The notes below the pieces were generated by a model, which saw only the letters and a list, made by a program, of their open reading frames with translations, searched no databases and was not told the origin of the DNA. A program made the position numbers and the translations under genes. A stretch of 64,000 nt of DNA from Haliotis asinina (taxonomy: Eukaryota > Mollusca > Gastropoda > Lepetellida > Haliotidae). Positions 26,877 through 64,000 of the stretch are shown piece by piece; the stretch's first letter is position 1, and every line of letters begins with the position of its first letter. Where the stretch lies: assembly GCF_037392515.1 (NCBI RefSeq), contig NC_090295.1, positions 21,096,001-21,160,000 on the forward strand, written 5' to 3'.

Positions 26877-26913
26877 ATGCAGTTCTATAAAATAACACTC
26901 GTTGTGGCATTGG
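26877..26913 (+). pseudogene. Edge unit: exon 1 only of the Gly-rich gene
   Basis: ATG 26877 encodes MQFYKITLVVAL (two changes from the usual exon 1) and keeps an intact donor (GGGTAAGTT). After about 110 nt of intron the sequence jumps at GTGAC to the spacer phrase ATGTAGATGACTATTTGACC. It jumps again at GGATCA to AATCAAGGTCTGTTACAATC, and then runs into the promoter of gene 1. Exon 2 and most of the spacer are therefore missing: the unit is 752 bp, start to start. The upstream TATA region does not match the other units. The exon is still in phase with exon 2 of gene 1, so read-through splicing to it is conceivable. Confidence 0.75.
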
Positions 26914-27628: not shown

Positions 27629-28193
27629 ATGCAGGTCTATAAAATAGCACTGGTTGTGGCATTGGGTAAGTTTAACCTTTCATTATGGCTGTTTCGGTAT
27701 TGCAAAAACGCTGACTGAGAAGTTCACCCCTTCTTTCATTTCATAGCATATGTTCTACAACGATGTGACTTAAAGAGCTAAGAAAGTGTTCTTAGCAGCA
27801 CTTTAATGTTGAAAACGATATTTTAGGGATGTTTTTTACAGATGGTTAACAACTGATGTGTGCTTCTTCATTTCCTTTCCAGTGTTCACAGCCTTCTTTG
27901 GCTCTGCCTATGGTGGCCACGGAGGTGGTGGTGGCAAAGGAGGTGGAGGGGGGCATGGAGGTGGCGGCAAAGGCGGTGGTGGCAAAGGAGGTGGCGGCAA
28001 GGGAGGCGGTGGCAAAGGAGGTGGTGGCCATGGAGGAGGTGGTGGAAAAGGAGGCGGTGGCCATGGAGGAGGTGGTGGAAAAGGAGGCGGTGGCCATGGA
28101 GGAGGTGGTGGAAAAGGAGGCGGTGGCAAAGGAGGTGGCGGCCATGGAGGAGGTGGAAAGGGCGGTGGTGGAGGTGGCGGCCACCATGGTTAA
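27629..28193 (+). CDS. Gly-rich secreted protein, gene 1 (115 aa)
   Basis: Exon 1 is 27629-27665 and exon 2 is 27883-28193, with a 217-nt GT-AG intron in phase 1 (donor G/GTAAGTTT, acceptor TTTCCTTTCCAG). The spliced product begins MQVYKIALVVAL then VFTAFFGSAYG, a clear signal peptide with cleavage likely after SA or AYG. The mature part, about 92-94 residues, is only Gly, Lys and His: GGGGK, GGGGH and GGGGGK blocks (10 Lys, 8 His), ending GGGGGGGHHG. It has no Cys or aromatic residue beyond the Tyr at the cleavage site. Such proteins are usually secreted extracellular components such as shell matrix, mucus or adhesive; a glycine-rich antimicrobial peptide is an alternative. This copy differs from the others by Val3 and by TCAAGTGCC after the stop. 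Confidence 0.88.
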
Positions 28194-28305
28194 GCTCAAG
28201 TGCCTCTGCACATTTCTGTCAAATGCTGGACATCTGGTGTCATCATGGTCATATGTTCATTAACTACACCGTCCTATACAATGTCAGCTTTAAGAAATCT
28301 GGTCA

Positions 28306-28311
28306 AATAAA
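28306..28311 (+). terminator. Poly(A) signal of gene 1
   Basis: AATAAA in GGTCAAATAAACTCAC, 113 nt after the stop codon. The later genes checked have it at the same offset. Confidence 0.8.
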
Positions 28312-29969
28312 CTCACAAAAACAATGTCCTTTCCACTTTGTACTTACTTATTGCTTCCTTGCAAATTTCAAGAAGAAACATGTATGTCCTCCCTGATAAG
28401 AGACGTACATAACAATCAGAAAGAAGGAAGCCCATATTCTGTAAATCAGAGACACAGACATACCAAGCGCATACCTTTTCATGCCAGTTTCAACATGCTA
28501 CTTTTAACATCGAATCCTCATAGAAAAACGCAAGTCATTACTGCCAATGATTCACTTCTTGACTGTATTGTCGGAAAGTACAGGCATGGTCTGTATCATT
28601 GTCCATTGGGGACATTAAGACGAGGCTCGAATGAAAGGGAGTGAAACCAAGTACATCAGTTCCAGCTCCACACATTCGGCAGGCTGCCGCAAAACACATT
28701 CATAGTAACATGTGAACACATTTCACTTTCAAGCTTTTTCAAATGGTTTGTCCTCATTGTGTACGTGAAGAAAAACAGAGCATGTCCCCTCAACTACATT
28801 TGCCTCAATATCAAATGAACTGATTACTGTACACAATAGTCCCCAAACATGTCAGGTCTACATTCTTTATGGCCACGTGTAGACCTTTCTGTGCCTTAGA
28901 AAGCCTGAAACTTTAGAGAAATACATCATCATTAAGGTAGCAGCATACCATGACTAACACCATTTACTTCACATCTGTCCATAGCCGTTACATGACAGTC
29001 AGTGCCTTAATTACATTCTTCAACTATCTGCTAGGCACAATAGTATGCCATTTAGAGCTCATTCTTAAATACAATCACATTAAGTTTACTCTTTACACAT
29101 TGAAATGAGGATAGCATGCCACGTCTACGTTTTCTAACACTAGCATATACTAGTCTTGATACACGATATCAGTCATGTGGAGAGAGCTCATAGAGATCAA
29201 TTGAACATTCAGACTACAAACGTTGAACTGATTGTTCTGTTTTCCCTTAAATGTTTGGAGCAACATGATGTATATGTGTGACATGTAGATGACTATTTGA
29301 CCTGCTTTCAGCCTCTCGCTACCTTCTATCCCTACACTCTTAATATCAATCTAAACTTCTTATGTTTAAAAGGATGTTGGATCATACCTGTGTCCATTAT
29401 TCAATAGATCGTACTAAAGGTTTATGTTTGGTGCCACTAGCAGCAAATTTGGCAATGGAGCCATGTAGCATTTGCTTTTAATTCCATAAGGAGTGGTACG
29501 TTTTCATCATATGAAATCTTGCAGTACCTATCTTTGCCCACTTCAATCAAGGTTTGTTACAATCATCGCAAGTCAGGGAACCATTCCACTGCACTACGAG
29601 ACTTACAGCAACCTGATATTTACATGTATGTATTCTTCTTGCATTTTATAGATTTCACTCCATTCACTTTTTGTGTATGCTATATTTACTTTCAAGTCAT
29701 TGGATGAGTCAGTGTAACCCAGCTTTTCATCCAGCAGAGAAACAGCCAAGGGGCGCCTGTCTGCCTTACTAATGCACAGTATGTGTCTGATGGCTAAGCA
29801 GGAAAACGTAAATAATAAAGAATGAATATATCCAGTGTCAAGGTGATATTACATAACATGCTGGTAGTTCACAAATAAATGGTTAGGAAAAACTCAAAAT
29901 GGAATTTCTTTTCTTTCTTTCTCAATTGAGGCTATTTCGATTCACTGTCTTCATTTCCTTCTCCATTTG
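28312..29969 (+). other. Spacer of unit 1
   Basis: About 1.66 kb between the poly(A) signal and the next TATA box; the same sequence recurs in all units. It carries a 106-codon open frame (28324-28644, MSFPLCTYLLLPCKFQ...) preserved in every spacer with a few replacements. It lies past the poly(A) signal and has no promoter of its own. The CTTTTCTTTCTTTCTCAATT tract just before the TATA box is conserved and may be a promoter element. Confidence 0.7.
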
Positions 29970-30044
29970 TATAAAAGGCCATGTGTGCTTGCAAAACGGT
30001 CATTCACATCGTTTATTCTATTGTGGATAGACGTATCCGTGAAG

Positions 30045-30609
30045 ATGCAGCTCTATAAAATAGCACTGGTTGTGGCATTGGGTAAGTTTAACCTTTCATT
30101 ATAGCTGTTTGGGTATTGCAAAAACGCTGACTGAGAAGTTCACCCCTTCTTTCATTTCCTAGCATATGTTCTACAACGATGTGACTTAAAGAGCTAAGAA
30201 AGTGTTCTTAGCAGCACTTTAATGTTGAAAACGATATTTTAGGAATGATCTTTACAGATGATTAACAACTGATGTGTGCTTCTTCATTTCCTTTCCAGTG
30301 TTCACAGCCTTCTTTGGCTCTGCCTATGGTGGCCACGGAGGTGGTGGTGGCAAAGGAGGTGGAGGGGGGCATGGAGGTGGCGGCAAAGGCGGTGGTGGCA
30401 AAGGAGGTGGCGGCAAGGGAGGCGGTGGCAAAGGAGGTGGTGGCCATGGAGGAGGTGGTGGAAAAGGAGGCGGTGGCCATGGAGGAGGTGGTGGAAAAGG
30501 AGGCGGTGGCCATGGAGGAGGTGGTGGAAAAGGAGGCGGTGGCAAAGGAGGTGGCGGCCATGGAGGAGGTGGAAAGGGCGGTGGTGGAGGTGGCGGCCAC
30601 CATGGTTAA
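30045..30609 (+). CDS. Gly-rich secreted protein, gene 2 (115 aa)
   Basis: Exons 30045-30081 and 30299-30609; TATA 29970-29977; AATAAA 30722-30727. Exon 1 is the standard MQLYKIALVVAL. It is the first copy with the TAAGTTCAACTGG 3' UTR start that marks genes 2-6. Confidence 0.88.
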
Positions 30610-32459
30610 GTTCAACTGGCTCTGCACATTTCTGTCAAATGCTGGACATCTGGTGTCATCATGGTCATATGTTCATTAACTACACCGTCCTATACAATGT
30701 CAGCTTTAAGAAATCTGGTCAAATAAACTCACAAAAACAATGCCCTTTCCACTTTGTACTTACTTATTGCTTCCTTGCAAATTTCAAGAAGAAACATGTA
30801 TGTCCTCCCTGATAAGAGACGTACATAACAATCAGAAAGAAGGAAGCCCATATTCTGTAAATCAGAGACACAGACATACCAAGCGCATACCTTTTCATGC
30901 CAGTTTCAACATGCTACTTTTAACATCGAATCCTCATAGAAAAACGCAAGTCATTACTGCCAATGATTCACTTCTTGACTGTATTGTCGGAAAGTACAGG
31001 CATGGTCTGTATCATTGTCCATTGGGGACATTAAGACGAGGCTCGAATGAAAGGGAGTGAAACCAAGTACATCAGTTCCAGCTCCACACATTCGGCAGGC
31101 TGCCGCAAAACACATTCATAGTAACATGTGAACACATTTCACTTTCAAGCTTTTTCAAATGGTTTGTCCTCATTGTGTACGTGAAGAAAAACAGAGCATG
31201 ACCCCTCAACTACATTTGCCTCAATATCAAATGAACTGATTACTGTACACAATAGTCCCCAAACATGTCAGGTCTACATTCTTTATGGCCACGTGTAGAC
31301 CTTTCTGTGCCTTAGAAAGCCTGAAACTTTAGAGAAATACATCATCATTAAGGTAGCAGCATACCATGACTAACACCATTTACTTCACATCTGTCCATAG
31401 CCGTTACATGACAGTCAGTGCCTTAATTACATTCTTCAACTATCTGCTAGGCACAATAGTATGCCATTTAGAGCTCATTCTTAAATACAATCACATTAAG
31501 TTTACTCTTTACACATTGAAATGAGGATAGCATGCCACGTCTACGTTTTCTAACACTAGCATATACTAGTCTTGATACACGATATCAGTCATGTGGAGAG
31601 AGCTCATAGAGATCAATTGAACATTCAGACTACAAGCGTTGAACTGATTGTTCTGTTTTCCCTTAAATGTTTGGAGCAACATGATGTATATGTGTGACAT
31701 GTAGATGACTATTTGACCTGCTTTCAGCCTCTCGCTACCTTCTATCCCTACACTCTTAATATCAATCTAAACTTCTTATGTTTAAAAGGATGTTGGATCA
31801 TACCTGTGTCCATTATTCAATAGATCGTACTAAAGGTTTATGTTTGGTGCCACTAGCAGCAAATTTGGCAATGGAGCCATGTAGCATTTGCTTTTAATTC
31901 CATAAGGAGTGGTACGTTTTCATCATATGAAATCTTGCAGTACCTATCTTTGCCCACTTCAATCAAGGTCTGTTACAATCATCGCAAGTCAGGGAACCAT
32001 TCCACTGCACTACGAGACTTACAGCAACCTGATATTTACATGTATGTATTCTTCTTGCATTTTATAGATTTCACTCCATTCACTTTTTGTGTATGCTATA
32101 TTTACTTTCAAGTCATTGGATGAGTCAGTGTAACTCAGCTTTTCATCCAGCAGAGAAACAGCCAAGGGGCGCCTGTCTGCCTTACTAATGCACAGTATGT
32201 GTCTGATAGCTAAGCAGGAAAACGTAAATAATAAAGAATGAATATATCCAGTGTCAAGGTGATATTACATAACATGCTGGTAGTTCACAAATAAATGGTT
32301 AGGAAAACTCAAAATGGAATTTCTTTTCTTTCTTTCTCAATTGAGGCTATTTCGATTCACTGTCTTCATTTCCTTCTCCATTTGTATAAAAGGCCCTGTG
32401 TGCTTGCAAAACGGTCATTCACATCGTTTATTCTATTGTGGATAGACGTATCCGTGAAG

Positions 32460-33023
32460 ATGCAGCTCTATAAAATAGCACTGGTTGTGGCATTGGGTAA
32501 GTTTAACCTTTCATTATAGCTGTTTGGGTATTGCAAAACGCTGACTGAGACGTTCACCCCTTCTTTCATTTCCTAGCATATGTTCTACAACGATGTGACT
32601 TAAAGAGCTAAGAAAGTGTTCTTAGCAGCACTTTAATGTTGAAAACGATATTTTAGGAATGATCTTTACAGATGATTAACAACTGATGTGTGCTTCTTCA
32701 TTTCCTTTCCAGTGTTCACAGCCTTCTTTGGCTCTGCCTATGGTGGCCACGGAGGTGGTGGTGGCAAAGGAGGTGGAGGGGGGCATGGAGGTGGCGGCAA
32801 AGGCGGTGGTGGCAAAGGAGGTGGCGGCAAGGGAGGCGGTGGGAAAGGAGGTGGTGGCCATGGAGGAGGTGGTGGAAAAGGAGGCGGTGGCCATGGAGGA
32901 GGTGGTGGAAAAGGAGGCGGTGGCCATGGAGGAGGTGGTGGAAAAGGAGGCGGTGGCAAAGGAGGTGGCGGCCATGGAGGAGGTGGAAAGGGCGGTGGTG
33001 GAGGTGGCGGCCACCATGGTTAA
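32460..33023 (+). CDS. Gly-rich secreted protein, gene 3 (115 aa)
   Basis: Exons 32460-32496 and 32713-33023; intron 216 nt; TATA 32385-32392. The protein is standard. Two DNA marks: a GAGACGTTCACC variant in the intron, shared only with genes 4 and 5, and a silent GGC-to-GGG change in a Gly codon of exon 2 (GGCGGTGGGAAAGG), shared only with gene 8. Confidence 0.88.
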
Positions 33024-34873
33024 GTTCAACTGGCTCTGCACATTTCTGTCAAATGCTGGACATCTGGTGTCATCATGGTCATATGTTCATTAACTACACC
33101 GTCCTATACAATGTCAGCTTTAAGAAATCTGGTCAAATAAACTCACAAAAACAATGCCCTTTCCACTTTGTACTTACTTATTGCTTCCTTGCAAATTTCA
33201 AGAAGAAACATGTATGTCCTCCCTGATAAGAGACGTACATAACAATCAGAAAGAAGGAAGCCCATATTCTGTAAATCAGAGACACAGACATACCAAGCGC
33301 ATACCTTTTCATGCCAGTTTCAACATGCTACTTTTAACATCGAATCCTCATAGAAAAACGCAAGTCATTACTGCCAATGATTCACTTCTTGACTGTATTG
33401 TCGGAAAGTACAGGCATGGTCTGTATCATTGTCCATTGGGGACATTAAGACGAGGCTCGAATGAAAGGGAGTGAAACCAAGTACATCAGTTCCAGCTCCA
33501 CACATTCGGCAGGCTGCCGCAAAACACATTCATAGTAACATGTGAACACATTTCACTTTCAAGCTTTTTCAAATGGTTTGTCCTCATTGTGTACGTGAAG
33601 AAAAACAGAGCATGTCCCCTCAACTACATTTGCCTCAATATCAAATGAACTGATTACTGTACACAATAGTCCCCAAACATGTCAGGTCTACATTCTTTAT
33701 GGCCACGTGTAGACCTTTCTGTGCCTTAGAAAGCCTGAAACTTTAGAGAAATACATCATCATTAAGGTAGCAGCATACCATGACTAACACCATTTACTTC
33801 ACATCTGTCCATAGCCGTTACATGACAGTCAGTGCCTTAATTACATTCTTCAACTATCTGCTAGGCACAATAGTATGCCATTTAGAGCTCATTCTTAAAT
33901 ACAATCACATTAAGTTTACTCTTTACACATTGAAATGAGGATAGCATGCCACGTCTACGTTTTCTAACACTAGCATATACTAGTCTTGATACACGATATC
34001 AGTCATGTGGAGAGAGCTCATAGAGATCAATTGAACATTCAGACTACAAGCGTTGAACTGATTGTTCTGTTTTCCCTTAAATGTTTGGAGCAACATGATG
34101 TATATGTGTGACATGTAGATGACTATTTGACCTGCTTTCAGCCTCTCGCTACCTTCTATCCCTACACTCTTAATATCAATCTAAACTTCTTATGTTTAAA
34201 AGGATGTTGGATCATACCTGTGTCCATTATTCAATAGATCGTACTAAAGGTTTATGTTTGGTGCCACTAGCAGCAAATTTGGCAATGGAGCCATGTAGCA
34301 TTTGCTTTTAATTCCATAAGGAGTGGTACGTTTTCATCATATGAAATCTTGCAGTACCTATCTTTGCCCACTTCAATCAAGGTCTGTTACAATCATCGCA
34401 AGTCAGGGAACCATTCCACTGCACTACGAGACTTACAGCAACCTGATATTTACATGTATGTATTCTTCTTGCATTTTATAGATTTCACTCCATTCACTTT
34501 TTGTGTATGCTATATTTACTTTCAAGTCATTGGATGAGTCAGTGTAACTCAGCTTTTCATCCAGCAGAGAAACAGCCAAGGGGCGCCTGTCTGCCTTACT
34601 AATGCACAGTATGTGTCTGATAGCTAAGCAGGAAAACGTAAATAATAAAGAATGAATATATCCAGTGTCAAGGTGATATTACATAACATGCTGGTAGTTC
34701 ACAAATAAATGGTTAGGAAAACTCAAAATGGAATTTCTTTTCTTTCTTTCTCAATTGAGGCTATTTCGATTCACTGTCTTCATTTCCTTCTCCATTTGTA
34801 TAAAAGGCCCTGTGTGCTTGCAAAACGGTCATTCACATCGTTTATTCTATTGTGGATAGACGTATCCGTGAAG

Positions 34874-35437
34874 ATGCAGCTCTATAAAATAGCACTGGTT
34901 GTGGCATTGGGTAAGTTTAACCTTTCATTATAGCTGTTTGGGTATTGCAAAACGCTGACTGAGACGTTCACCCCTTCTTTCATTTCCTAGCATATGTTCT
35001 ACAACGATGTGACTTAAAGAGCTAAGAAAGTGTTCTTAGCAGCACTTTAATGTTGAAAACGATATTTTAGGAATGATCTTTACAGATGATTAACAACTGA
35101 TGTGTGCTTCTTCATTTCCTTTCCAGTGTTCACAGCCTTCTTTGGCTCTGCCTATGGTGGCCACGGAGGTGGTGGTGGCAAAGGAGGTGGAGGGGGGCAT
35201 GGAGGTGGCGGCAAAGGCGGTGGTGGCAAAGGAGGTGGCGGCAAGGGAGGCGGTGGCAAAGGAGGTGGTGGCCATGGAGGAGGTGGTGGAAAAGGAGGCG
35301 GTGGCCATGGAGGAGGTGGTGGAAAAGGAGGCGGTGGCCATGGAGGAGGTGGTGGAAAAGGAGGCGGTGGCAAAGGAGGTGGCGGCCATGGAGGAGGTGG
35401 AAAGGGCGGTGGTGGAGGTGGCGGCCACCATGGTTAA
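34874..35437 (+). CDS. Gly-rich secreted protein, gene 4 (115 aa)
   Basis: Exons 34874-34910 and 35127-35437; TATA 34799-34806. The predicted protein equals that of gene 2. The intron carries the GAGACGTTC variant of genes 3-5. Confidence 0.88.
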
Positions 35438-37287
35438 GTTCAACTGGCTCTGCACATTTCTGTCAAATGCTGGACATCTGGTGTCATCATGGTCATATGT
35501 TCATTAACTACACCGTCCTATACAATGTCAGCTTTAAGAAATCTGGTCAAATAAACTCACAAAAACAATGCCCTTTCCACTTTGTACTTACTTATTGCTT
35601 CCTTGCAAATTTCAAGAAGAAACATGTATGTCCTCCCTGATAAGAGACGTACATAACAATCAGAAAGAAGGAAGCCCATATTCTGTAAATCAGAGACACA
35701 GACATACCAAGCGCATACCTTTTCATGCCAGTTTCAACATGCTACTTTTAACATCGAATCCTCATAGAAAAACGCAAGTCATTACTGCCAATGATTCACT
35801 TCTTGACTGTATTGTCGGAAAGTACAGGCATGGTCTGTATCATTGTCCATTGGGGACATTAAGACGAGGCTCGAATGAAAGGGAGTGAAACCAAGTACAT
35901 CAGTTCCAGCTCCACACATTCGGCAGGCTGCCGCAAAACACATTCATAGTAACATGTGAACACATTTCACTTTCAAGCTTTTTCAAATGGTTTGTCCTCA
36001 TTGTGTACGTGAAGAAAAACAGAGCATGTCCCCTCAACTACATTTGCCTCAATATCAAATGAACTGATTACTGTACACAATAGTCCCCAAACATGTCAGG
36101 TCTACATTCTTTATGGCCACGTGTAGACCTTTCTGTGCCTTAGAAAGCCTGAAACTTTAGAGAAATACATCATCATTAAGGTAGCAGCATACCATGACTA
36201 ACACCATTTACTTCACATCTGTCCATAGCCGTTACATGACAGTCAGTGCCTTAATTACATTCTTCAACTATCTGCTAGGCACAATAGTATGCCATTTAGA
36301 GCTCATTCTTAAATACAATCACATTAAGTTTACTCTTTACACATTGAAATGAGGATAGCATGCCACGTCTACGTTTTCTAACACTAGCATATACTAGTCT
36401 TGATACACGATATCAGTCATGTGGAGAGAGCTCATAGAGATCAATTGAACATTCAGACTACAAGCGTTGAACTGATTGTTCTGTTTTCCCTTAAATGTTT
36501 GGAGCAACATGATGTATATGTGTGACATGTAGATGACTATTTGACCTGCTTTCAGCCTCTCGCTACCTTCTATCCCTACACTCTTAATATCAATCTAAAC
36601 TTCTTATGTTTAAAAGGATGTTGGATCATACCTGTGTCCATTATTCAATAGATCGTACTAAAGGTTTATGTTTGGTGCCACTAGCAGCAAATTTGGCAAT
36701 GGAGCCATGTAGCATTTGCTTTTAATTCCATAAGGAGTGGTACGTTTTCATCATATGAAATCTTGCAGTACCTATCTTTGCCCACTTCAATCAAGGTCTG
36801 TTACAATCATCGCAAGTCAGGAAACCATTCCACTGCACTACGAGACTTACAGCAACCTGATATTTACATGTATGTATTCTTCTTGCATTTTATAGATTTC
36901 ACTCCATTCACTTTTTGTGTATGCTATATTTACTTTCAAGTCATTGGATGAGTCAGTGTAACTCAGCTTTTCATCCAGCAGAGAAACAGCCAAGGGGCGC
37001 CTGTCTGCCTTACTAATGCACAGTATGTGTCTGATAGCTAAGCAGGAAAACGTAAATAATAAAGAATGAATATATCCAGTGTCAAGGTGATATTACATAA
37101 CATGCTGGTAGTTCACAAATAAATGGTTAGGAAAACTCAAAATGGAATTTCTTTTCTTTCTTTCTCAATTGAGGCTATTTCGATTCACTGTCTTCATTTC
37201 CTTCTCCATTTGTATAAAAGGCCCTGTGTGCTTGCAAAACGGTCATTCACATCGTTTATTCTATTGTGGATAGACGTATCCGTGAAG

Positions 37288-37851
37288 ATGCAGCTCTATA
37301 AAATAGCACTGGTTGTGGCATTGGGTAAGTTTAACCTTTCATTATAGCTGTTTGGGTATTGCAAAACGCTGACTGAGACGTTCACCCCTTCTTTCATTTC
37401 CTAGCATATGTTCTACAACGATGTGACTTAAAGAGCTAAGAAAGTGTTCTTAGCAGCACTTTAATGTTGAAAACGATATTTTAGGAATGATCTTTACAGA
37501 TGATTAACAACTGATGTGTGCTTCTTCATTTCCTTTCCAGTGTTCACAGCCTTCTTTGGCTCTGCCTATGGTGGCCACGGAGGTGGTGGTGGCAAAGGAG
37601 GTGGAGGGGGGCATGGAGGTGGCGGCAAAGGCGGTGGTGGCAAAGGAGGTGGCGGCAAGGGAGGCGGTGGCAAAGGAGGTGGTGGCCATGGAGGAGGTGG
37701 TGGAAAAGGAGGCGGTGGCCATGGAGGAGGTGGTGGAAAAGGAGGCGGTGGCCATGGAGGAGGTGGTGGAAAAGGAGGCGGTGGCAAAGGAGGTGGCGGC
37801 CATGGAGGAGGTGGAAAGGGCGGTGGTGGAGGTGGCGGCCACCATGGTTAA
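37288..37851 (+). CDS. Gly-rich secreted protein, gene 5 (115 aa)
   Basis: Exons 37288-37324 and 37541-37851; TATA 37213-37220. Standard protein. Last of the three genes with the GAGACGTTC intron variant. Its spacer has its own changes (AAATGATTTGTCC, CATTGTTTACG, near 38400). Confidence 0.88.
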
Positions 37852-39702
37852 GTTCAACTGGCTCTGCACATTTCTGTCAAATGCTGGACATCTGGTGTCA
37901 TCATGGTCATATGTTCATTAACTACACCGTCCTATACAATGTCAGCTTTAAGAAATCTGGTCAAATAAACTCACAAAAACAATGCCCTTTCCACTTTGTA
38001 CTTACTTATTGCTTCCTTGCAAATTTCAAGAAGAAACATGTATGTCCTCCCTGATAAGAGACGTACATAACAATCAGAAAGAAGGAAGCCCATATTCTGT
38101 AAATCAGAGACACAGACATACCAAGCGCATACCTTTTCATGCCAGTTTCAACATGCTACTTTTAACATCGAATCCTCATAGAAAAACGCAAGTCATTACT
38201 GCCAATGATTCACTTCTTGACTGTATTGTCGGAAAGTACAGGCATGGTCTGTATCATTGTCCATTGGGGACATTAAGACGAGGCTCGAATGAAAGGGAGT
38301 GAAACCAAGTACATCAGTTCCAGCTCCACACATTCGGCAGGCTGCCGCAAAACACATTCATAGTAACATGTGAACACATTTCACTTTCAAGCTTTTTCAA
38401 ATGATTTGTCCTCATTGTTTACGTGAAGAAAAACAGAGCATGTCCCCTCAACTACATTTGCCTCAATATCAAATGAACTGATTACTGTACACAATAGTCC
38501 CCAAACATGTCAGGTCTACATTCTTTATGGCCACGTGTAGACCTTTCTGTGCCTTAGAAAGCCTGAAACTTTAGAGAAATACATCATCATTAAGGTAGCA
38601 GCATACCATGACTAACACCATTTACTTCACATCTGTCCATAGCCGTTACATGACAGTCAGTGCCTTAATTACATTCTTCAACTATCTGCTAGGCACAATA
38701 GTATGCCATTTAGAGCTCATTCTTAAATACAATCACATTAAGTTTACTCTTTACACATTGAAATGAGGATAGCATGCCACGTCTACGTTTTCTAACACTA
38801 GCATATACTAGTCTTGATACACGATATCAGTCATGTGGAGAGAGCTCATAGAGATCAATTGAACATTCAGACTACAAGCGTTGAACTGATTGTTCTGTTT
38901 TCCCTTAAATGTTTGGAGCAACATGATGTATATGTGTGACATGTAGATGACTATTTGACCTGCTTTCAGCCTCTCGCTACCTTCTATCCCTACACTCTTA
39001 ATATCAATCTAAACTTCTTATGTTTAAAAGGATGTTGGATCATACCTGTGTCCATTATTCAATAGATCGTACTAAAGGTTTATGTTTGGTGCCACTAGCA
39101 GCAAATTTGGCAATGGAGCCATGTAGCATTTGCTTTTAATTCCATAAGGAGTGGTACGTTTTCATCATATGAAATCTTGCAGTACCTATCTTTGCCCACT
39201 TCAATCAAGGTCTGTTACAATCATCGCAAGTCAGGAAACCATTCCACTGCACTACGAGACTTACAGCAACCTGATATTTACATGTATGTATTCTTCTTGC
39301 ATTTTATAGATTTCACTCCATTCACTTTTTGTGTATGCTATATTTACTTTCAAGTCATTGGATGAGTCAGTGTAACCCAGCTTTTCATCCAGCAGAGAAA
39401 CAGCCAAGGGGCGCCTGTCTGCCTTACTAATGCACAGTATGTGTCTGATAGCTAAGCAGGAAAACGTAAATAATAAAGAATGAATATATCCAGTGTCAAG
39501 GTGATATTACATAACATGCTGGTAGTTCACAAATAAATGGTTAGGAAAAACTCAAAATGGAATTTCTTTTCTTTCTTTCTCAATTGAGGCTATTTCGATT
39601 CACTGTCCTCATTTCCTTCTCCATTTGTATAAAAGGCCCTGTGTGCTTGCAAAACGGTCATTCACATCGTTTATTCTATTGTGGATAGACGTATCCGTGA
39701 AG

Positions 39703-46959: not shown

Positions 46960-47493
46960 ATGCAGCTCTATAAAATAGCACTGGTTGTGGCATTGGGTAA
47001 GTTTAACCTTTCATTATAGCTGTTTGGGTATTGCAAAACGCTGACTGAGAAGTTCACCCCTTCTTTCGTTTCCCAGCATATGTTCTACAACGATTTGACT
47101 TAAAGAGCTAAGAAAGTGTTCTTAGCAGCACTTTAATGTTGAAAACGATATTTTAGGGATGTTCTTTACAGATGATTAACAACTGATGTGTGCTTCTTCA
47201 TTTCCTTTCCAGTGTTCACAGCCTTCTTTGGCTCTGCCTATGGTGGCCACGGAGGTGGTGGTGGCAAAGGAGGTGGAGGGGGGCATGGAGGTGGCGGCAA
47301 AGGCGGTGGTGGCAAAGGAGGTGGCGGCAAGGGAGGCGGTGGCAAAGGAGGTGGTGGCCATGGAGGAGGTGGTGGAAAAGGAGGCGGTGGCCATGGAGGA
47401 GGTGGTGGAAAAGGAGGCGGTGGCCATGGAGGAGGTGGCGGCCATGGAGGAGGTGGAAAGGGCGGTGGTGGAGGTGGCGGCCACCATGGTTAA
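46960..47493 (+). CDS. Gly-rich secreted protein, gene 9 (105 aa)
   Basis: Exons 46960-46996 and 47213-47493; TATA 46885-46892. Exon 2 is 30 nt shorter: ten residues are lost in the C-terminal third, so GGGGGHGGGGGHGGGGK replaces the longer H/K series. The reading frame is kept. From this unit on, the spacer belongs to the TTTACCCATTG group. Confidence 0.88.
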
Positions 47494-49343: not shown

Positions 49344-49907
49344 ATGCAGCTCTATAAAATAGCACTGGTTGTGGCATTGGGTAAGTTTAACCTTTCATTA
49401 TAGCTGTTTGGGTATTGCAAAACGCTGACTGAGAAGTTCACCCCTTCTTTCGTTTCCCAGCATATGTTCTACAACGATGTGACTTAAAGAGCTAAGAAAG
49501 TGTTCTTAGCAGCACTTTAATGTTGAAAACGATATTTTAGGGATGTTCTTTACAGATGATTAACAACTGATGTGTGCTTCTTCATTTCCTTTCCAGTGTT
49601 CACAGCCTTCTTTGGCTCTGCCTATGGTGGCCACGGAGGTGGTGGTGGCAAAGGAGGTGGAGGGGGGCATGGAGGTGGCGGCAAAGGCGGTGGTGGCAAA
49701 GGAGGTGGCGGCAAGGGAGGCGGTGGCAAAGGAGGTGGTGGCCATGGAGGAGGTGGTGGAAAAGGAGGCGGTGGCCATGGAGGAGGTGGTGGAAAAGGAG
49801 GCGGTGGCCATGGAGGAGGTGGTGGAAAAGGAGGCGGTGGCAAAGGAGGTGGCGGCCATGGAGGAGGTGGAAAGGGCGGTGGTGGAGGTGGCGGCCACCA
49901 TGGTTAA
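49344..49907 (+). CDS. Gly-rich secreted protein, gene 10 (115 aa)
   Basis: Exons 49344-49380 and 49597-49907; TATA 49269-49276. Standard protein. The 5' UTR has CCGTGGAGATG instead of CCGTGAAGATG, shared only with gene 11. Confidence 0.88.
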
Positions 49908-52321: not shown

Positions 52322-54171
52322 GCTCAACTGGCTCTGCACATTTCTGTCAAATGCTGGACATCTGGTGTCATCATGGTCATATGTTCATTAACTACACCGT
52401 CCTATACAATGTCAGCTTTAAGAAATCTGGTCAAATAAACTCACAAAAACAATGCCCTTTCCACTTTGTACTTACTTATTGCTTCCTTGCAAATTTCAAG
52501 AAGAAACATGTATGTCCTCCCTGATAAGAGACGTACATAACAATCAGAAAGAAGGAAGCCCATATTCTGTAAATCAGAGACACAGACATACCAAGCGCAT
52601 ACCTTTTCATGCCAGTTTCAACATGCTACTTTTAACATCGAATCCTCATAGAAAAACGCAAGTCATTACTGCCAATGATTCACTTCTTGACTGTATTGTC
52701 GGAAAGTACAGGCATGGTCTGTATCATTGTCCATTGGGGACATTAAGACGAGGCTCGAATGAAAGGGAGTGAAACCAAGTACATCAGTTCCAGCTCCACA
52801 CATTCGGCAGGCTGCCGCAAAACACATTGATAGTAACATGTGAACACATTTCACTTTCAAGCTTTTTCAAATGGTTTGTCCTCATTGTGTACGTGAAGAA
52901 AAACAGAGCATGTCCCCTCAACTACATTTGCCTCAATATCAAATGAACTGATTACTGTACACAATAGTCCCCAAACATGTCAGGCCTACATTCTTTATGG
53001 CCACGTGTAGACCTTTCTGTGCCTTAGAAAGCCTGAAAGTTTAGAGAAATACATCATCATTAAGGTAGCAGCATACCATGACTAACACCATTTACTTCAC
53101 ATCTGTCCATAGCCGTTACATGACTGTCAGTGCCTTAATTACATTCTTCAACTATCTGCTAGGCACAATAGTATGCCATTTAGAGCTCATTCTTAAATAC
53201 AATAACATTAAGTTTACTCTTTACCCATTGAAATGAGGATAGCATGCCACGTCTTGGTTTTCTAACACTAGCATATACTAGTCTTGATCCACGATATCAG
53301 TCATGTGGAGAGAGCTCATAGAGATCAATTCAACATTCAGACTACAAGCGTTGAACTGATTGCTCTGTTTTCCCTTAAATGTTTGGAGCAACATGATGTA
53401 TATGTGTGACATGTAGATGACTATTTGACCTGCTTTCAGCCTCTCCGTACTTCTACCCCTACACTCTTAATATCAATCTAAACTTCTTATGTTTAAAAGG
53501 ATGTTGGATCATACCTGTGTCCATTATTCAATAGATCGTACTAAAGGTTTATGTTTGGTGCCACTAGCAACAACTTTGACCATGGAGCCATGTAGCATTT
53601 GCTTTTAATTCCATAAGGAGTGGTATGTTTTCATCATATGAAAGCTTGCAGTACCTATCTTTGCCCACTTCAATCAAGGTCTGTTACAATCATCGCAAGT
53701 CAGGGAACCATTCCACTGCACTACGAGACTTACAGCAACCTGATATTTACATGTATGTATTCTTCTTGCATTTTATAGATTTCACTCCATTCACTTTTTG
53801 TGTATGCTATATTTACTTTCAAGTCATTGGATGAGTCAGTGTAACCCAGCTTTTCATCCAGCAGAGAAACAGCCAAGGGGCGCCTGTCTGCCTTACTAAT
53901 GCACAGTATGTGTCTGATAGCTAAGCAGGAAAACGTAAATAATAAAGAATGAATATATCCAGCGTCAAGGTGATATTACATAACATGCTGGTAGTTCACA
54001 AATAAATGGTTAGGAAAAACTCAAAATGGAATTTCTTTTCTTTCTTTCTCAATTGAGGCTATTTCGATTCACTGTCCTCATTTCCTTCTCCATTTGTATA
54101 AAAAGCCATGTGTGCTTGCAAAACGGTCATTCACATCGTTTTTTCTATTGTGGATAGACGTATCCGTGAAG

Positions 54172-54670
54172 ATGCAGCTCTATAAAATAGCACTGGTTGT
54201 GGCATTGGGTAAGTTTAACCTTTCATTATAGCTGTTTGGGTATTGCAAAAACGCTGACTGAGAAGTTCACTCCTTCTTTCATTTCCTAGCATATGTTCTA
54301 CAACGATGTGACTTAAAGAGCTAAGAAAGTGTTCTTAGCAGCACTTTAATGTTGAAAACGATATTTTAGGGATGTTCTTTACAGATGATTAACAACTGAT
54401 GTGTGCTTCTTCATTTCCTTTCCAGTGTTCACAGCCTTCTTTGGCTCTGCCTATGGTAGCCACGGAGGTGGTGGTGGCAAAGGAGGTGGAGGGGGGCATG
54501 GAGGTGGCGACAAAGGCGGTGGTGGCAAAGGAGGTGGCGGCAAGGGAGGCGGTGGCAAAGGAGGTGGTGGCCATGGAGGAGGTGGTGGAAAAGGAGGCGG
54601 TGGCAAAGGAGGTGGCGGCCATGGAGGAGGTGGAAAGGGCGGTGGTGGAGGTGGCGGCCACCATGGTTAA
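54172..54670 (+). CDS. Gly-rich secreted protein, gene 12 (93 aa, most altered)
   Basis: Exons 54172-54208 and 54426-54670; TATA-like TATAAAAA at 54097-54104 (others have TATAAAAG). Exon 2 has lost 66 nt, two 11-residue GGGGHGGGGGK repeats, in frame. It also carries Gly24 to Ser (AYGSHGG) and Gly41 to Asp (HGGGDK), the only acidic residue in any copy. The 5' UTR has TTTTTTC for TTTATTC. It remains open and spliceable, but these changes suggest weaker constraint. Confidence 0.85.
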
Positions 54671-56521
54671 GCTCAACTGGCTCTGCACATTTCTGTCAAA
54701 TGCTGGACATCTGGTGTCATCATGGTCATATGTTCATTAACTACACCGTCCTATACAATGTCAGCTTTAAGAAATCTGGTCAAATAAACTCACAAAAACA
54801 ATGCCCTTTCCACTTTGTACTTACTTATTGCTTCCTTGCAAATTTCAAGAAGAAACATGTATGTCCTCCCTGATAAGAGACGTACATAACAATCAGAAAG
54901 AAGGAAGCCCATATTCTGTAAATCAGAGACACAGACATACTAAGCGCATACCTTTTCATGCCATTTTCAACATGCTACTTTTAACATCGAATCCTCATAG
55001 AAAAACGCAAGTCATTACTGCCAATGATTCACTTCTTGACTTTATTGTCGGAAAGTACAGGCATGGTCTGTATCATTGTCCATTGGGGACATTAAGACGA
55101 GGCTCGAATGAAAGGGAGTGAAACCAAGTACATCAGTTCCAGCTCCACACATTCGGCAGGCTGCCGCAAAACACATTCATAGTAACATGTGAACACATTT
55201 CACTTTCAAGCTTTTTCAAATGGTTTGTCCTCATTGTGTACGTGAAGAAAAACAGAGCATGTCCCCTCAACTACATTTGCCTCAATATCAAATGAACTGA
55301 TTACTGTACACAATAGTCCCCAAACATGTCAGGCCTACATTCTTTATGGCCACGTGTAGACCTTTCTGTGCCTTAGAAAGCCTGAAAGTTTAGAGAAATA
55401 CATCATCATTAAGGTAGCAGCATACCATGACTAACACCATTTACTTCACATCTGTCCATAGCCGTTACATGACTGTCAGTGCCTTACTTACATTCTTCAA
55501 CTATCTGCTAGGCACAATAGTATGCCATTTAGAGCTCATTCTTAAATACAATAACATTAAGTTTACTCTTTACCCATTGAAATGAGGATAGCATGCCACG
55601 TCTTGGTTTTCTAACACTAGCATATACTAGTCTTGATACACGATATCAGTCATGTGGAGAGAGCTCATAGAGATCAATTCAACATTCAGACTACAAGCGT
55701 TGAACTGATTGTTCTGTTTTCCCTTAAATGTTTGGAGCAACATGATGTATATGTGTGACATGTAGATGACTATTTGACCTGCTTTCAGCCTCTCGCTACC
55801 TTCTATCCCTACACTCTTAATATCAATCTAAACTTCTTATGTTTAAAAGGATGTTGGATCATACCTGTGTCCATTATTCAATAGATCGTACTAAAGGTTT
55901 ATGTTTGGTGCCACTAGCAGCAAATTTGGCAATGGAGCCATGTAGCATTTGCTTTTAATTCCATAAGGAGTGGTATGTTTTCATCATATGAAATCTTGCA
56001 GTACCTATCTTTGCCCACTTCAATCAAGGTCTGTTACAATCATCGCAAGTCAGGGAACCATTCCACTGCACTACGAGACTTACAGCAACCTGATATTTAC
56101 ATGTATGTATTCTTCTTGCATTTTATAGATTTCACTCCATTCACTTTTTGTGTATGCTATATTTACTTTCAAGTCATTGGATGAGTCAGTCTAACTCAGC
56201 TTTTCATCCAGCAGAGAAACAGCCAAGGGGCGCCTGTCTGCCTTACTAATGCACAGTATGTGTCTGATAGCTAAGCAGGAAAACGTAAATAATAAAGAAT
56301 GAATATATCCAGTGTCAAGGTGATATTACATAACATGCTGGTAGTTCACAAATAAATGGTTAGGAAAAACTCAAAATGGAATTTCTTTTCTTTCTTTCTC
56401 AATTGAGGCTATTTCGATTCACTGTCCTCATTTCCTTCTCCATTTGTATAAAAGGCCATGTGTGCTTGCAAAACGGTCATTCACATCGTTTATTCTATTG
56501 TGGATAGACGTATCCGTGAAG

Positions 56522-57086
56522 ATGCAGCTCTATAAAATAGCACTCGTTGTGGCATTGGGTAAGTTTAACCTTTCATTATAGCTGTTTGGGTATTGCAAAA
56601 ACGCTGACTGAGAAGTTCACCCCTTCTTTCATTTCCTAGCATATGTTCTACAACGATGTGACTTAAAGAGCTAAGAAAGTGTTCTTAGCAGCACTTTAAT
56701 GTTGAAAACGATATTTTAGGAATGATCTTTACAGATGATTAACAACTGATGTGTGCTTCTTCATTTCCTTTCCAGTGTTCACAGCCTTCTTTGGCTCTGC
56801 CTATGGTGGCCACGGAGGTGGTGGTGGCAAAGGAGGTGGAGGGGGGCATGGAGGTGGCGGCAAAGGCGGTGGTGGCAAAGGAGGTGGCGGCAAGGGAGGC
56901 GGTGGCAAAGGAGGTGGTGGCCATGGAGGAGGTGGTGGAAAAGGAGGCGGTGGCCATGGAGGAGGTGGTGGAAAAGGAGGCGGTGGCCATGGAGGAGGTG
57001 GTGGAAAAGGAGGCGGTGGCAAAGGAGGTGGCGGCCATGGAGGAGGTGGAAAGGGCGGTGGTGGAGGTGGCGGCCACCATGGTTAA
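56522..57086 (+). CDS. Gly-rich secreted protein, gene 13 (115 aa)
   Basis: Exons 56522-56558 and 56776-57086; TATA 56447-56454. Standard protein with a silent CTC Leu codon in exon 1. It shares CACACAAACAATG after the poly(A) signal with gene 14. Confidence 0.88.
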
Positions 57087-58937
57087 GCTCAACTGGCTCT
57101 GCACATTTCTGTCAAATGCTGGACATCTGGTGTCATCATGGTCATATGTTCATTAACTACACCGTCCTATACAATGTCAGCTTTAAGAAATCTGGTCAAA
57201 TAAACTCACACAAACAATGTCCTTTCCACTTTGTACTTACTTATTGCTTCCTTGCAAATTTCAAGAAGAAACATGTATGTCCTCCCTGATAAGAGACGTA
57301 CATAACAATCAGAAAGAAGGAAGCCCATATTCTGTAAATCAGAGACACAGACATACCAAGCGCATACCTTTTTATGCCAGTTTCAACATGCCAGTTTTAA
57401 CATCGAATCCTCATAGAAAAACGCAAGTCATTACTGCCAATGATTCACTTCTTGACTGTATTGTCGGAAAGTACCGGCATGGTCTGTATCATTGTCCATT
57501 GGGGACATTAAGACGAGGCTCGAATGAAAGGGAGTGAAACCAAGTACATCAGTTCCAGCTCCACACATTCGGCAGGCTGCCGCAAAACACATTCATAGTA
57601 ACATGTGAACACATTTCACTTTCAAGCTTTTTCAAATGGTTTGTCCTCATTGGGTACGTGAAGAAAAACAGAGCATGTCCCCTCAACTACATTTGCCTCA
57701 ATATCAAATGAACTGATTACTGTACACAATAGTCCCCAAACATGTCAGGCCTACATTCTTTATGTCCACGTGTAGACCTTTCTGTGCCTTAGAAAGCCTG
57801 AAAGTTTAGAGAAATACATCATCATTAAGGTAGCAGCATACCATGACTAACACCATTTACTTCACATCTGTCCATAGCCGTTACATGACTGTCAGTGCCT
57901 TAATTACATTCTTCAACTATCTGCTAGGCACAATAGTATGCCATTTAGAGCTCATTCGTAAATACAATCACATTAAGTTTACTCTTTACTCATTGAAATG
58001 AGGATAGCATGCCACGTCTACGTTTTCTAACACTACCATATACTAGTCTTGATACACGATATCAGTCATGTGGAGAGAGCTCATAGAGATCAATTCAACA
58101 TTCAGACTACAAGCGTTGAACTGATTGTTCTGTTTTCCCTTAAATGTTTGGAGCAACATGATGTATATGTGTGACATGTAGATGACTATTTGACCTGCTT
58201 TCAGCCTCTCGCTACCTTCTATCCCTACACTCTTAATATCAATCTAAACTTCTTATGTTTAAAAGGATGTTGGATCATACCTGTGTCCATTATTCAATAG
58301 ATCGTACTAAAGGTTTATGTTTGGTGCCACTAGCAGCAAATTTGGCAATGGAGCCATGTAGCATTTGCTTTTAATTCCATAAGGAGTGGTATGTTTTCAT
58401 CATATGAAATCTTGCAGTACCTATCTTTGCCCACTTCAATCAAGGTCTGTTACAATCATCGCAAGTCAGGGAACCATTCCACTGCACTACGAGACTTACA
58501 GCAACCTGATATTTACATGTATGTATTCTTCTTGCATTTTATAGATTTCACTCCATTCACTTTTTGTGTATGCTATATTTACTTTCAAGTCATTGGATGA
58601 GTCAGTCTAACTCAGCTTTTCATCCAGCAGAGAAACAGCCAAGGGGCGCCTGTCTGCCTTACTAATGCACAGTATGTGTCTGATAGCTAAGCAGGAAAAC
58701 GTAAATAATAAAGAATGAATATATCCAGTGTCAAGGTGATATTACATAACATGCTGGTAGTTCACAAATAAATGGTTAGGAAAAACTCAAAATGGAATTT
58801 CTTTTCTTTCTTTCTCAATTGAGGCTATTTCGATTCACTGTCCTCATTTCCTTCTCCATTTGTATAAAAGGCCATGTGTGCTTGCAAAACGGTCATTCAC
58901 ATCGTTTATTCTATTGTGGATAGACGTATCCGTGAAG

Positions 58938-59502
58938 ATGCAGCTCTATAAACTAGCACTCGTTGTGGCATTGGGTAAGTTTAACCTTTCATTATAGCTG
59001 TTTGGGTATTGCAAAAATGCTGACTGAGAAGTTCACCCCTTCTTTCATTTCCTAGCATATGTTCTACAACGATGTGACTTAAAGAGCTAAGAAAGTGTTC
59101 TTAGCAGCACTTTAATGTTGAAAACGATATTTTAGGAATGATCTTTACAGATGATTAACAACTGATGTGTGCTTCTTCATTTCCTTTCCAGTGTTCACAG
59201 CCTTCTTTGGCTCTGCCTATGGTGGCCACGGAGGTGGTGGTGGCAAAGGAGGTGGAGGGGGGCATGGAGGTGGCGGCAAAGGCGGTGGTGGCAAAGGAGG
59301 TGGCGGCAAGGGAGGCGGTGGCAAAGGAGGTGGTGGCCATGGAGGAGGTGGTGGAAAAGGAGGCGGTGGCCATGGAGGAGGTGGTGGAAAAGGAGGCGGT
59401 GGCCATGGAGGAGGTGGTGGAAAAGGAGGCGGTGGCAAAGGAGGTGGCGGCCATGGAGGAGGTGGAAAGGGCGGTGGTGGAGGTGGCGGCCACCATGGTT
59501 AA
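58938..59502 (+). CDS. Gly-rich secreted protein, gene 14 (115 aa, Leu6)
   Basis: Exons 58938-58974 and 59192-59502; TATA 58863-58870. One change in the signal peptide, Ile6 to Leu (MQLYKLALVVAL), conservative for secretion. Otherwise it pairs with gene 13. Confidence 0.88.
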
Positions 59503-61353
59503 GCTCAACTGGCTCTGCACATTTCTGTCAAATGCTGGACATCTGGTGTCATCATGGTCATATGTTCATTAACTACACCGTCCTATACAATGTCAGCTTT
59601 AAGAAATCTGGTCAAATAAACTCACACAAACAATGTCCTTTCCACTTTGTACTTACTTATTGCTTCCTTGCAAATTTCAAGAAGAAACATGTATGTCCTC
59701 CCTGATAAGAGACGTACATAACAATCAGAAAGAAGGAAGCCCATATTCTGTAAATCAGAGACACAGACATACCAAGCGCATACCTTTTTATGCCAGTTTC
59801 AACATGCCAGTTTTAACATCGAATCCTCATAGAAAAACGCAAGTCATTACTGCCAATGATTCACTTCTTGACTGTATTGTCGGAAAGTACCGGCATGGTC
59901 TGTATCATTGTCCATTGGGGACATTAAGACGAGGCTCGAATGAAAGGGAGTGAAACCAAGTACATCAGTTCCAGCTCCACACATTCGGCAGGCTGCCGCA
60001 AAACACATTCATAGTAACATGTGAACACATTTCACTTTCAAGCTTTTTCAAATGGTTTGTCCTCATTGGGTACGTGAAGAAAAACAGAGCATGTCCCCTC
60101 AACTACATTTGCCTCAATATCAAATGAACTGATTACTGTACACAATAGTCCCCAAACATGTCAGGCCTACATTCTTTATGTCCACGTGTAGACCTTTCTG
60201 TGCCTTAGAAAGCCTGAAAGTTTAGAGAAATACATCATCATTAAGGTAGCAGCATACCATGACTAACACCATTTACTTCACATCTGTCCATAGCCGTTAC
60301 ATGACTGTCAGTGCCTTAATTACATTCTTCAACTATCTGCTAGGCACAATAGTATGCCATTTAGAGCTCATTCTTAAATACAATCACATTAAGTTTACTC
60401 TTTACTCATTGAAATGAGGATAGCATGCCACGTCTACGTTTTCTAACACTACCATATACTAGTCTTGATACACGATATCAGTCATGTGGAGAGAGCTAAT
60501 AGAGATCAATTGAACATTCAGACTACAAGCGTTGAACTGATTGTTCTGCTTTCCCTTAAATGTTTGGACCAACATGATGTATATGTGTGACATGTAGATG
60601 ACTATTTGACCTGCTTTCAGCCTCTCGCTACCTTCTATCCCTACACTCTTAATATCAATCTAAACTTCTTATGTTAAAAAGGATGTTGGATCATACCTGT
60701 GTCCATTATTCAATAGATCGTACTAAAGGTTTATGTTTGGTGCCACTAGCAGCAAATTTGGCAATGGAGCCATGTAGCATTTGCTTTTAATTCCATAAGG
60801 AGTGGTATGTTTTCATCATATGAAATCTTGCAGTACCTATCTTTGCCCACTTCAATCAAGGTCTGTTACAATCATCGCAAGTCAGGGAACCATTCCACTG
60901 CACTACGAGACTTACAGCAACCTGATATTTACATGTATGTATTCTTCTTGCATTTTATAGATTTCACTCCATTCACTTTCTGTGTATGCTATATTTACTT
61001 TCAAGTCATTGGATGAGTCAGTGTAACCCAGCTTTTCATCCAGCAGAGAAACAGCCAAGGGGCGCCTGTCTGCCTTACTAATGCACAGTATGTGTCTGAT
61101 AGCTAAGCAGGAAAACGTAAATAATAAAGAATGAATATATCCAGCGTCAAGGTGATATTACATAACATGCTGGTAGTTCACAAATAAATGGTTAGGAAAA
61201 ACTCAAAATGGAATTTCTTTTCTTTCTTTCTCAATTGAGGCTATTTCGATTCACTGTCTTCATTTCCTTCTCCATTTGTATAAAAGGCCATGTGTGCTTG
61301 CAAAACGGTCATTCACATCGTTTATTCTATTGTGGATAGACGTATCTGTGAAG

Positions 61354-61917
61354 ATGCAGCTCTATAAAATAGCACTGGTTCTGGCATTGGGTAAGTTTAA
61401 CCTTTCATTATAGCTGTTTGGGTATTGCAAAACGCTGACTGAGAAGTTCACCACTTCTTTCATTTCCTAGCATATGTTCTACAACGATGTGACTTAAAGA
61501 GCTAAGAAAGTGTTCTTAGCAGCACTTTAATGTTGAAAACGATATTTTAGGGATGTTCTTTACAGATGATTAACAACTGATGTGTGCTTCTTCATTTCCT
61601 TTCCAGTGTTCACAGCCTTCTTTGGCTCTGCCTATGGTGGCCACGGAGGTGGTGGTGGCAAAGGAGGTGGAGGGGGGCATGGAGGTGGCGGCAAAGGCGG
61701 TGGTGGCAAAGGAGGTGGCGGCAAGGGAGGCGGTGGCAAAGGAGGTGGTGGCCATGGAGGAGGTGGTGGAAAAGGAGGCGGTGGCCATGGAGGAGGTGGT
61801 GGAAAAGGAGGCGGTGGCCATGGAGGAGGTGGTGGAAAAGGAGGCGGTGGCAAAGGAGGTGGCGGCCATGGAGGAGGTGGAAAGGGCGGTGGTGGAGGTG
61901 GCGGCCACCATGGTTAA
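61354..61917 (+). CDS. Gly-rich secreted protein, gene 15 (115 aa, Leu10)
   Basis: Exons 61354-61390 and 61607-61917; TATA 61279-61286. Val10 to Leu in the signal peptide (MQLYKIALVLAL). The 3' UTR starts TAAGCTCAACTGACTC. Confidence 0.88.
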
Positions 61918-63768
61918 GCTCAACTGACTCTGCACATTTCTGTCAAATGCTGGACATCTGGTGTCATCATGGTCATATGTTCATTAACTACACCGTCCTA
62001 TACAATGTCAGCTTTAAGAAATCTGGTCAAATAAACTCACAAAAACAATGTCCTTTCCACTTTGTACTTACTTATTGCTTCCTTGCAAATTTCAAGAAGA
62101 AACATGTATGTCCTCCCTGATAAGAGACGTACATAACAATCAGAAAGAAGGAAGCCCATATTCTGTAAATCAGAGACACAGACATACCAAGCGCATACCT
62201 TTTTATGCCAGTTTCAACATGCCAGTTTTAACATCGAATCATCATAGAAAAACGCAAGTCATTACTGCCAATGATTCACTTCTTGACTGTATTGTCGGAA
62301 AGTACAGGCATGGTCTGTATCATTGTCCATTGGGGACATTAAGACGAGGCTCGAATGAAAGGGAGTGAAACCAAGTACATCAGTTCCAGCTCCACACATT
62401 CGGCAGGCTGCCGCAAAACACATTTATGGTAACATGTGAACACATTTCACTTTCAAGCTTTTTCAAATGGTTTGTCCTCATTCGGTATGTGGAGAAAAAC
62501 AGAGCATGTCCCCTCAACTACATTTGCCTCAATATCAAATGAACTGATTACTGTACACAATAGTCCCCAAACATGTCAGGCCTACATTCTTTATGTCCAC
62601 GTGTAGACCTTTCTGTGCCTTAGAAAGCCTGAAACTTTAGAGAAATACATCATCATTAAGGTAGCAGCATACCATGACTAACACCATTTACTTCTCATCT
62701 GTCCATAGCCGTTACATGACTGTCAGTGCCTTAATTACATTTTTCAACTATCTGCTAGGCACAATAGTATGCCATTTAGAGCTCATTCTTAAATACAATC
62801 ACATTAAGTTTACTCTTTACTCATTGAAATGAGGATAGCATGCCACGTCTTGGTTTTCTAACACTAGCATATACTAGTCTTGATCCACGATATCAGTCAT
62901 GTGGAGAGAGCTCATAGAGATCAATTCAACATTCAGACTACAAGCGTTGAACTGATTGCTCTGTTTTTCCTTAAATGTTTGGAGCAACATGATGTATATG
63001 TGTGACATGTAGATGATTATTTGACCTGCTTTCAGCCTCTCGCTACCTTCTATCCCTACACTCTTAATATCAATCTAAACTTCTTATGTTTAAAAGGATG
63101 TTGGATCATACCTGTGTCCATTATTCAATAGATCGTACTAAAGGTTTATGTTTGGTGCCACTAGCAGCAAATTTGGCAATGGAGCCATGTAGCATTTGCT
63201 TTTAATTCCATAAGGAGTGGTATGTTTTCATCATATGAAATCTTGCAGTACCTATCTTTGCCCACTTCAATCAAGGTCTGTTACAATCATCGCAAGTCAG
63301 GGAACCATTCCACTGCACTACGAGACTGACAGCAACCTGATATTTACATGTATGTATTCTTCTTGCATTTTATAGATTTCACTCCATTCACTTTTTGTGT
63401 ATGCTATATTTACTTTCAAGTCATTGGATGAGTCAGTGTAACCCAGCTTTTCATCCAGCAGAGAAACAGCCAAGGGGCGCCTGTCTGCCTTACTAGTGCA
63501 CAGTATGTGTCTGATAGCTAAGCAGGAAAACGTAAATAATAAAGAATGAATATATCCAGTGTCAAGGTGATATTACATAACATGCTGGTAGTTCACAAAT
63601 AAATGGTTAGGAAAAACTCAAAATGGAATTTCTTTTCTTTCTTTCTCAATTGAGGCTATTTCGATTCACTGTCTTCATTTCCTTCTCCATTTGTATAAAA
63701 GGCCCTGTGTGCTTGCAAAACGGTCATTCACATCGTTTATTCTATTGTGGATAGACGTATCCGTGAAG

Positions 63769-64000
63769 ATGCAGCTCTATAAAATAGCACTGGTTGTGGC
63801 ATTGGGTAAGTTTAACCTTTCATTATAGCTGTTTGGGTATTGCAAAATGCTGACTGAGTAGTTCACCCCTTCTTTCGTTTCCTAGCATATGTTCTACAAC
63901 GATGTGACTTAAAGAGCTAAGAAAGTGTTCTTAGCAGCACTTTAATGTTGAAAACGATATTATAGGGATGTTCTTTACAGATGATTAACAACTGATGTGT
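63769..64000 (+). CDS. Gly-rich secreted protein, gene 16, cut by window end
   Basis: TATA 63694-63701; exon 1 63769-63805 (MQLYKIALVVAL) and a donor. The window ends inside the intron, about 20 nt before the expected acceptor, at AACTGATGTGT. Exon 2 is expected just outside. Confidence 0.8.

Follow-up and report, generated by a model that had tools for sequence, protein, structure and literature searches.

A tandem array of forty near-uniform genes for a putative secreted protein of glycine, lysine and histidine in Haliotis asinina

A head-to-tail array of two-exon genes is present on contig C16 of the Haliotis asinina genome assembly. After a signal-like N-terminus, the encoded protein is made almost entirely of glycine (Gly), lysine (Lys) and histidine (His). 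The array covers ~97 kb (C16:~21,122,822-21,220,064) of this 49.7-Mb contig, in a genome of 1.14 Gb and 159 contigs. The window analyzed here is a stretch of 64,000 nucleotides (C16:21,096,001-21,160,000), and the flanks were examined for 140 kb to its right and 60 kb to its left. The array runs 60 kb past the window end, to C16:21,220,064, and contains 40 complete genes and two deletion remnants, as counted in the assembly. A preliminary description of the window had proposed many near-equal intact copies with their own promoters and a signal-like N-terminus, at least fifteen of them, starting at position 27629. The copies are as described and more numerous than claimed, but the left edge of the array lies earlier, at 26822. 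We suggest, with a probability of roughly 0.55, that this is a dosage array that would make large amounts of a disordered, polycationic secreted protein for mucus, an adhesive or a shell/cuticle matrix.

The genes share a single layout. All 15 complete genes in the window have a coding exon 1 of 37 nt, a phase-1 intron of 216-217 nt and an open exon 2. Across the array, the donor GTAAGT and the acceptor CTTTCCAG are found in 40/40 complete genes, and TATAAAA lies 75 nt before the ATG in 40/40. The polyadenylation (poly(A)) signal AATAAA lies 112 nt after the stop codon in 39/40 genes; the exception, g21, is a complete copy in which the signal is lost. Within the window the genes are spaced 2350-2421 bp apart, and the units are 98.1-99.9% identical in pairwise comparison (gaps left out). 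A sixteenth gene, starting at 63769, is truncated where the window ends. The earlier account of ~2.4-kb units with a TATA box, a 37-nt first exon, a phase-1 intron and a poly(A) signal at fixed distances, and of fifteen complete copies that are open and spliceable, holds for 15/15 copies in the window, each with donor and acceptor. The features are as follows, in window positions unless marked C16.

26822..27427, + strand, left edge of the array, remnant unit with internal deletion (exon 1 at 26877-26913, no exon 2)
27629..28193, + strand, gene 1, 115 amino acids (exon 1 27629-27665, exon 2 27883-28193)
29970..29976, + strand, TATAAAA of gene 2, 75 nt before the ATG
30045..30609, + strand, gene 2, 115 amino acids
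30722..30727, + strand, AATAAA of gene 2, 112 nt after the stop codon
32460..33023, + strand, gene 3, 115 amino acids
34874..35437, + strand, gene 4, 115 amino acids
37288..37851, + strand, gene 5, 115 amino acids
39703..40267, + strand, gene 6, 115 amino acids
42118..42681, + strand, gene 7, 115 amino acids
44539..45102, + strand, gene 8, 115 amino acids, one Gly replaced by serine
46960..47493, + strand, gene 9, 105 amino acids, exon 2 shorter by 30 nt, in frame
49344..49907, + strand, gene 10, 115 amino acids
51758..52321, + strand, gene 11, 115 amino acids
54172..54670, + strand, gene 12, 93 amino acids, exon 2 shorter by 66 nt, in frame
56522..57086, + strand, gene 13, 115 amino acids
58938..59502, + strand, gene 14, 115 amino acids
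61354..61917, + strand, gene 15, 115 amino acids
63769..64000, + strand, window part of gene 16, complete in the contig (126 amino acids, C16:21159769-21160365)

The remnant at the left edge has kept exon 1 and lost exon 2. The other remnant, to the right of the window, has its exon 2 at C16:21161870 without promoter or exon 1; its deletion fuses the spacer of one unit to the intron of the next. The last unit of the array has a shortened spacer. The reference unit holds several other open reading frames (ORFs) of ~50-135 codons, two of which overlap exon 2 in other frames. There are no Rfam matches at the gathering score and no tRNAs in the window.

We searched the genome in three ways. With exon 1, the intron and the first part of exon 2 as a DNA query, 40 of 42 candidates were scored and 40 matches were obtained, none of them outside the array. 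The same result was obtained with 1.2 kb of spacer (40 matches, all in the array; 40/42 candidates scored). The protein search gave 42 matches, again all in the array (81/81 candidates scored); one exon 2 was split into two matches, so the matches represent 41 exons. No gene copies outside the array were found among the scored candidates of these searches, which diverged relatives could escape.

Between them, the 40 genes specify 21 different proteins, 93-131 amino acids long, two of which are encoded by 10 copies each. The N-terminus, MQLYKIALVVALVFTAFFGSAY, is hydrophobic and signal-like as judged by eye, and the protein is probably secreted. With the cut assumed after residue 22, the mature part has 83 or 93 residues in most copies and consists of stretches of Gly interrupted, mostly at intervals of five or six residues, by a Lys or His. 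The commonest form on the left-hand side of the array has a mature part of 93 residues (75 Gly, 10 Lys and 8 His; 81%, 11% and 9%) and ends in GGGGGGGHHG. The product had been described as Gly, Lys and His only after the signal. This is correct for the commonest mature form, but some copies carry one or two serine, aspartate, arginine, valine or leucine residues there. The protein contains no cysteine, and its mature part has no tyrosine (Tyr) and almost no hydrophobic residues; it is probably disordered. By calculation, the 93-residue form carries a net charge of +16.0 at pH 5.5 and +9.2 at pH 8. Differences in protein length are due to in-frame gain or loss of exon 2 modules. One 115-residue copy matched no Pfam family and no PDB sequence at E up to 1, although low-complexity sequence is hard for both search methods. 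The first 61 residues had no tblastn match among phage records, which is of no weight.

The copies fall into two subfamilies. Genes g01-g20 on the left mostly encode 115 amino acids and begin with MQLYKI, while g24-g40 on the right mostly encode 105 amino acids and begin with MQLYKL; g21-g23 are mixed between the two. The mean difference between units (gaps left out) is 1.49% on the left (19 units), 1.13% on the right (16 units) and 3.41% between the subfamilies. Neighboring copies are the most alike, as in concerted evolution. The distance between units grows with their separation (Mantel r 0.69 for 38 units, 0.58 for 19 left units and 0.42 for 16 right units; p 0.001-0.002), and therefore fits unequal crossing-over with local spread. 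Pairwise differences within the left subfamily, within the right subfamily and between them are 0.50, 0.83 and 1.48% in exon 2, 1.66, 1.20 and 3.81% in the spacer, and 1.84, 1.43 and 5.31% in the intron. One part of the spacer, from about -565 to -151 before each ATG (the end of one unit and the start of the next), has only 0-1 differences per 100 nt between the subfamily consensuses. This may be either an upstream regulatory stretch or a gene-conversion tract.

For the mature part, the counts across the 40 copies are 17 synonymous changes at 77.7 sites and 11 nonsynonymous changes at 189.3 sites, or 10 nonsynonymous changes if a double change in g34 is taken as one. The nonsynonymous/synonymous ratio per site is 0.27. 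The ratio is 0.23 in the left subfamily (9 synonymous, 5 nonsynonymous) and 0.41 in the right (6 and 6). All of the nonsynonymous changes are in Gly codons and none in Lys or His codons, but these are about ten events, too few to build on. Purifying selection that keeps the mature protein is moderately supported by these counts, and is likely but not proven.

We propose that ~40 genes of nearly identical sequence, all with a TATA box of their own and 39/40 with a poly(A) signal, would jointly yield much protein. Very high expression, and selection for it, would be plausible. Unequal crossing-over together with purifying selection on the protein would hold the copies alike. The product would be exported into an extracellular material, most likely mucus, an adhesive or a shell/cuticle matrix. 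Here Lys and His, spaced evenly along a flexible Gly chain, could bind polyanions such as sulphated glycans and acidic matrix proteins. His could serve as a pH or metal switch, as the charge would go from about +16 at pH 5.5, similar to an acidic granule, to +9 at pH 8, near that of sea water. More tentatively, and with little confidence, this three-residue polycation might form a new extracellular material, with the decrease in charge between granule and sea water triggering coacervation or cross-linking on secretion. If the genes are expressed, the array would illustrate clearly how output can be raised through a large number of nearly equal copies of one minimal gene for a secreted polymer. 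The product would then be a natural polyelectrolyte of GGGGK and GGGGH units, worth attention in relation to adhesion and mineral binding. Proteomic studies of shell or mucus that use trypsin could miss such a protein because its pieces are GGGGK or near-pure Gly: in the commonest form, 4/11 tryptic pieces are GGGGK and the others are near-pure Gly pieces of 9-11 residues.

Several points weigh against a dosage array kept by selection on its protein. The assignment of function is drawn from composition, as would be any silk, chorion or mucus role of the kind suggested in the preliminary description. The simple binomial p for the synonymous and nonsynonymous counts (0.0004-0.0006) is optimistic because the copies share ancestry. 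No constraint is seen in the N-terminal codons by the same count (4 nonsynonymous vs. 1 synonymous). In the right subfamily, exon 2 has hardly fewer variable sites than the spacer (42.7/kb vs. 46.3/kb), and the 300 nt before the ATG are less different than exon 2 (0.41% vs. 0.83%). Several 100-nt windows outside exon 2, including those at 1300-1449 and 1950-2099 after the ATG and at -300 to -151, have 0-1 differences between the subfamily consensuses, as does exon 2. Gap runs are multiples of three in 81/81 cases in exon 2, 77/132 in the spacer and 0/35 in the intron, but the in-frame gaps of exon 2 are no evidence for selection because in-frame repeats and recombination could suffice.

The protein might instead act in defense, as a cationic Gly-rich antimicrobial peptide or immune effector whose gene was amplified to protect epithelia or mucosae. 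It is short, cationic, Gly-rich and free of cysteine, with a signal-like N-terminus, all of which would suit such a role. Immune effectors often diversify, however, and the array copies resemble one another, the nonsynonymous rate among them being low. The near lack of hydrophobic residues in the mature part also argues against it. We consider a defensive role unlikely, but it is kept alive by snail mucus, in which short Gly/Lys/His strings occur in antibacterial fractions: in the available text, the garden-snail peptides GGGGHGGGGK and GGGKGGGGH come from fractions reported to be antibacterial (PMC11206429, PMC8945727). The activity of single peptides of this snail, Cornu aspersum, is given there as predicted only (PMC11206429, PMC8945727). 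These peptides are de novo reads of mixed composition, and their kinship with the array protein is not established.

A second alternative is neutral or selfish tandem amplification, in which unequal crossing-over spreads the unit and the gene is carried along as a little-expressed passenger. The signs of unequal crossing-over are clear, and some spacer stretches have diverged as little as exon 2. Intactness alone is weak evidence against a passenger because ~84% of mutated copies would keep an open frame if substituted at the spacer rate. The chance that 40/40 copies would be open at that rate is 0.0009 if the copies are taken as independent, which they are not. The ratio in the mature part is more difficult to reconcile with a passenger gene, as is the finding that exon 2 differs less than the intron and the whole spacer in 3/3 comparisons (left, right and between). 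On balance, a passenger gene appears distinctly unlikely.

Worm jaws and squid beak are cross-linked through Gly and His. By analogy, the array protein could be a metal-binding hardening protein of the radula, jaw or cuticle, with cross-links at these residues. His is recurrent and Gly very high, but Lys exceeds His in the commonest copy and the mature part has no Tyr, which makes this role highly doubtful. An assembly artefact from a repeated contig is unlikely because the 38 aligned whole units differ by 0.04-1.49% from the nearest unit, but it is less unlikely for the closest copies, which are separated by only ~1 change in 2.4 kb. Chance or low-complexity noise is ruled out, as the unit is ~2.4 kb long and repetitive only in exon 2.

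Other loci were observed around the array and elsewhere in the genome. To the left of the array is a small gene family with three related exons (window 493-777, C16:21056747-21057091 and C16:21082701-21083054) that are 44-57% identical over 58-102 amino acids. One of these exons has a weak Ependymin match below the cut-off (E 0.033) and the other two have none; Ependymin matches over the cut-off are on C8 and C10. A 45-bp minisatellite of ~43 copies, with long ORFs on both strands, occupies window 22811-24730. Two ORFs lie at window 14015-14921, the first judged by eye and the second with a DDE_3 transposase match below the cut-off (E 0.0026). Upstream of the window, a run of ORFs at C16:21071573-21075981 resembles by eye a retroelement of the long interspersed nuclear element (LINE) type, with endonuclease and reverse transcriptase. 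Egg_lysin (PF01303) exons are found at C14:26671878-26918244, with six matches over the cut-off, two of which have internal stops; the family was found in 0/14 control genomes. Taken by themselves, these exons point to an abalone. Two of the exon translations match four sperm/egg lysin sequences in the PDB, which we take to be from abalone; these are the only matches at E up to 0.01.

The array can be compared with several known systems. Shematrins combine Gly-rich repeats, which include Tyr or other hydrophobic residues, with a basic motif at the C-terminus. The commonest array form differs in having only Gly, Lys and His, no Tyr and a terminal GGGGGGGHHG. In the lysine-rich mantle proteins (KRMPs) of Pinctada, a Lys-rich basic domain is set apart from the Gly/Tyr-rich domain that follows it, whereas the array protein has Lys and His interspersed in Gly throughout and no Tyr in its mature part. 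The likeness of the KRMPs, in the available text, is that of a Lys-rich, lineage-specific, expanded mantle family, and repetitive low-complexity secreted proteins are described as common in the molluscan mantle (PMC4897951). The Cornu aspersum mucus peptides resemble the array protein in short strings such as GGGGHGGGGK, but the available text gives these as de novo mass-spectrometry reads and mixed with leucine, valine, proline and others (PMC11206429, PMC8945727). GAAP, DGRP and the glycine-rich boundary protein of Haliotis are Gly-rich shell or mantle proteins too, but by their names they are also rich in alanine, asparagine or serine, aspartate, glutamine or methionine (PMC6003135). The available text of that paper has no occurrence of "lysine-rich" and one of "histidine", in a reference title. 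Nothing similar appears among 12 of 30 places in the accessible text on limpet mucus, where "histidine" and "lysine" occur 0 times (PMC7333891). We did not find a description of the gene or the array in the literature searched, which lies mostly apart from subscription papers and supplements. A pearl oyster has tandem shell-matrix genes, including five Gly-rich shematrins in two scaffolds, and in the available text the authors consider it possible that more gene copies give more transcripts (PMC4759782). Shematrins are, like the array products, repetitive Gly-rich proteins of tandem genes and are secreted, but they number five genes in two scaffolds against about forty near-uniform copies in one array, and the resemblance does not amount to kinship. 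Tandem secreted Gly-rich genes are already known from pearl oysters, and what is new here is forty near-uniform copies of a gene for a three-residue protein.

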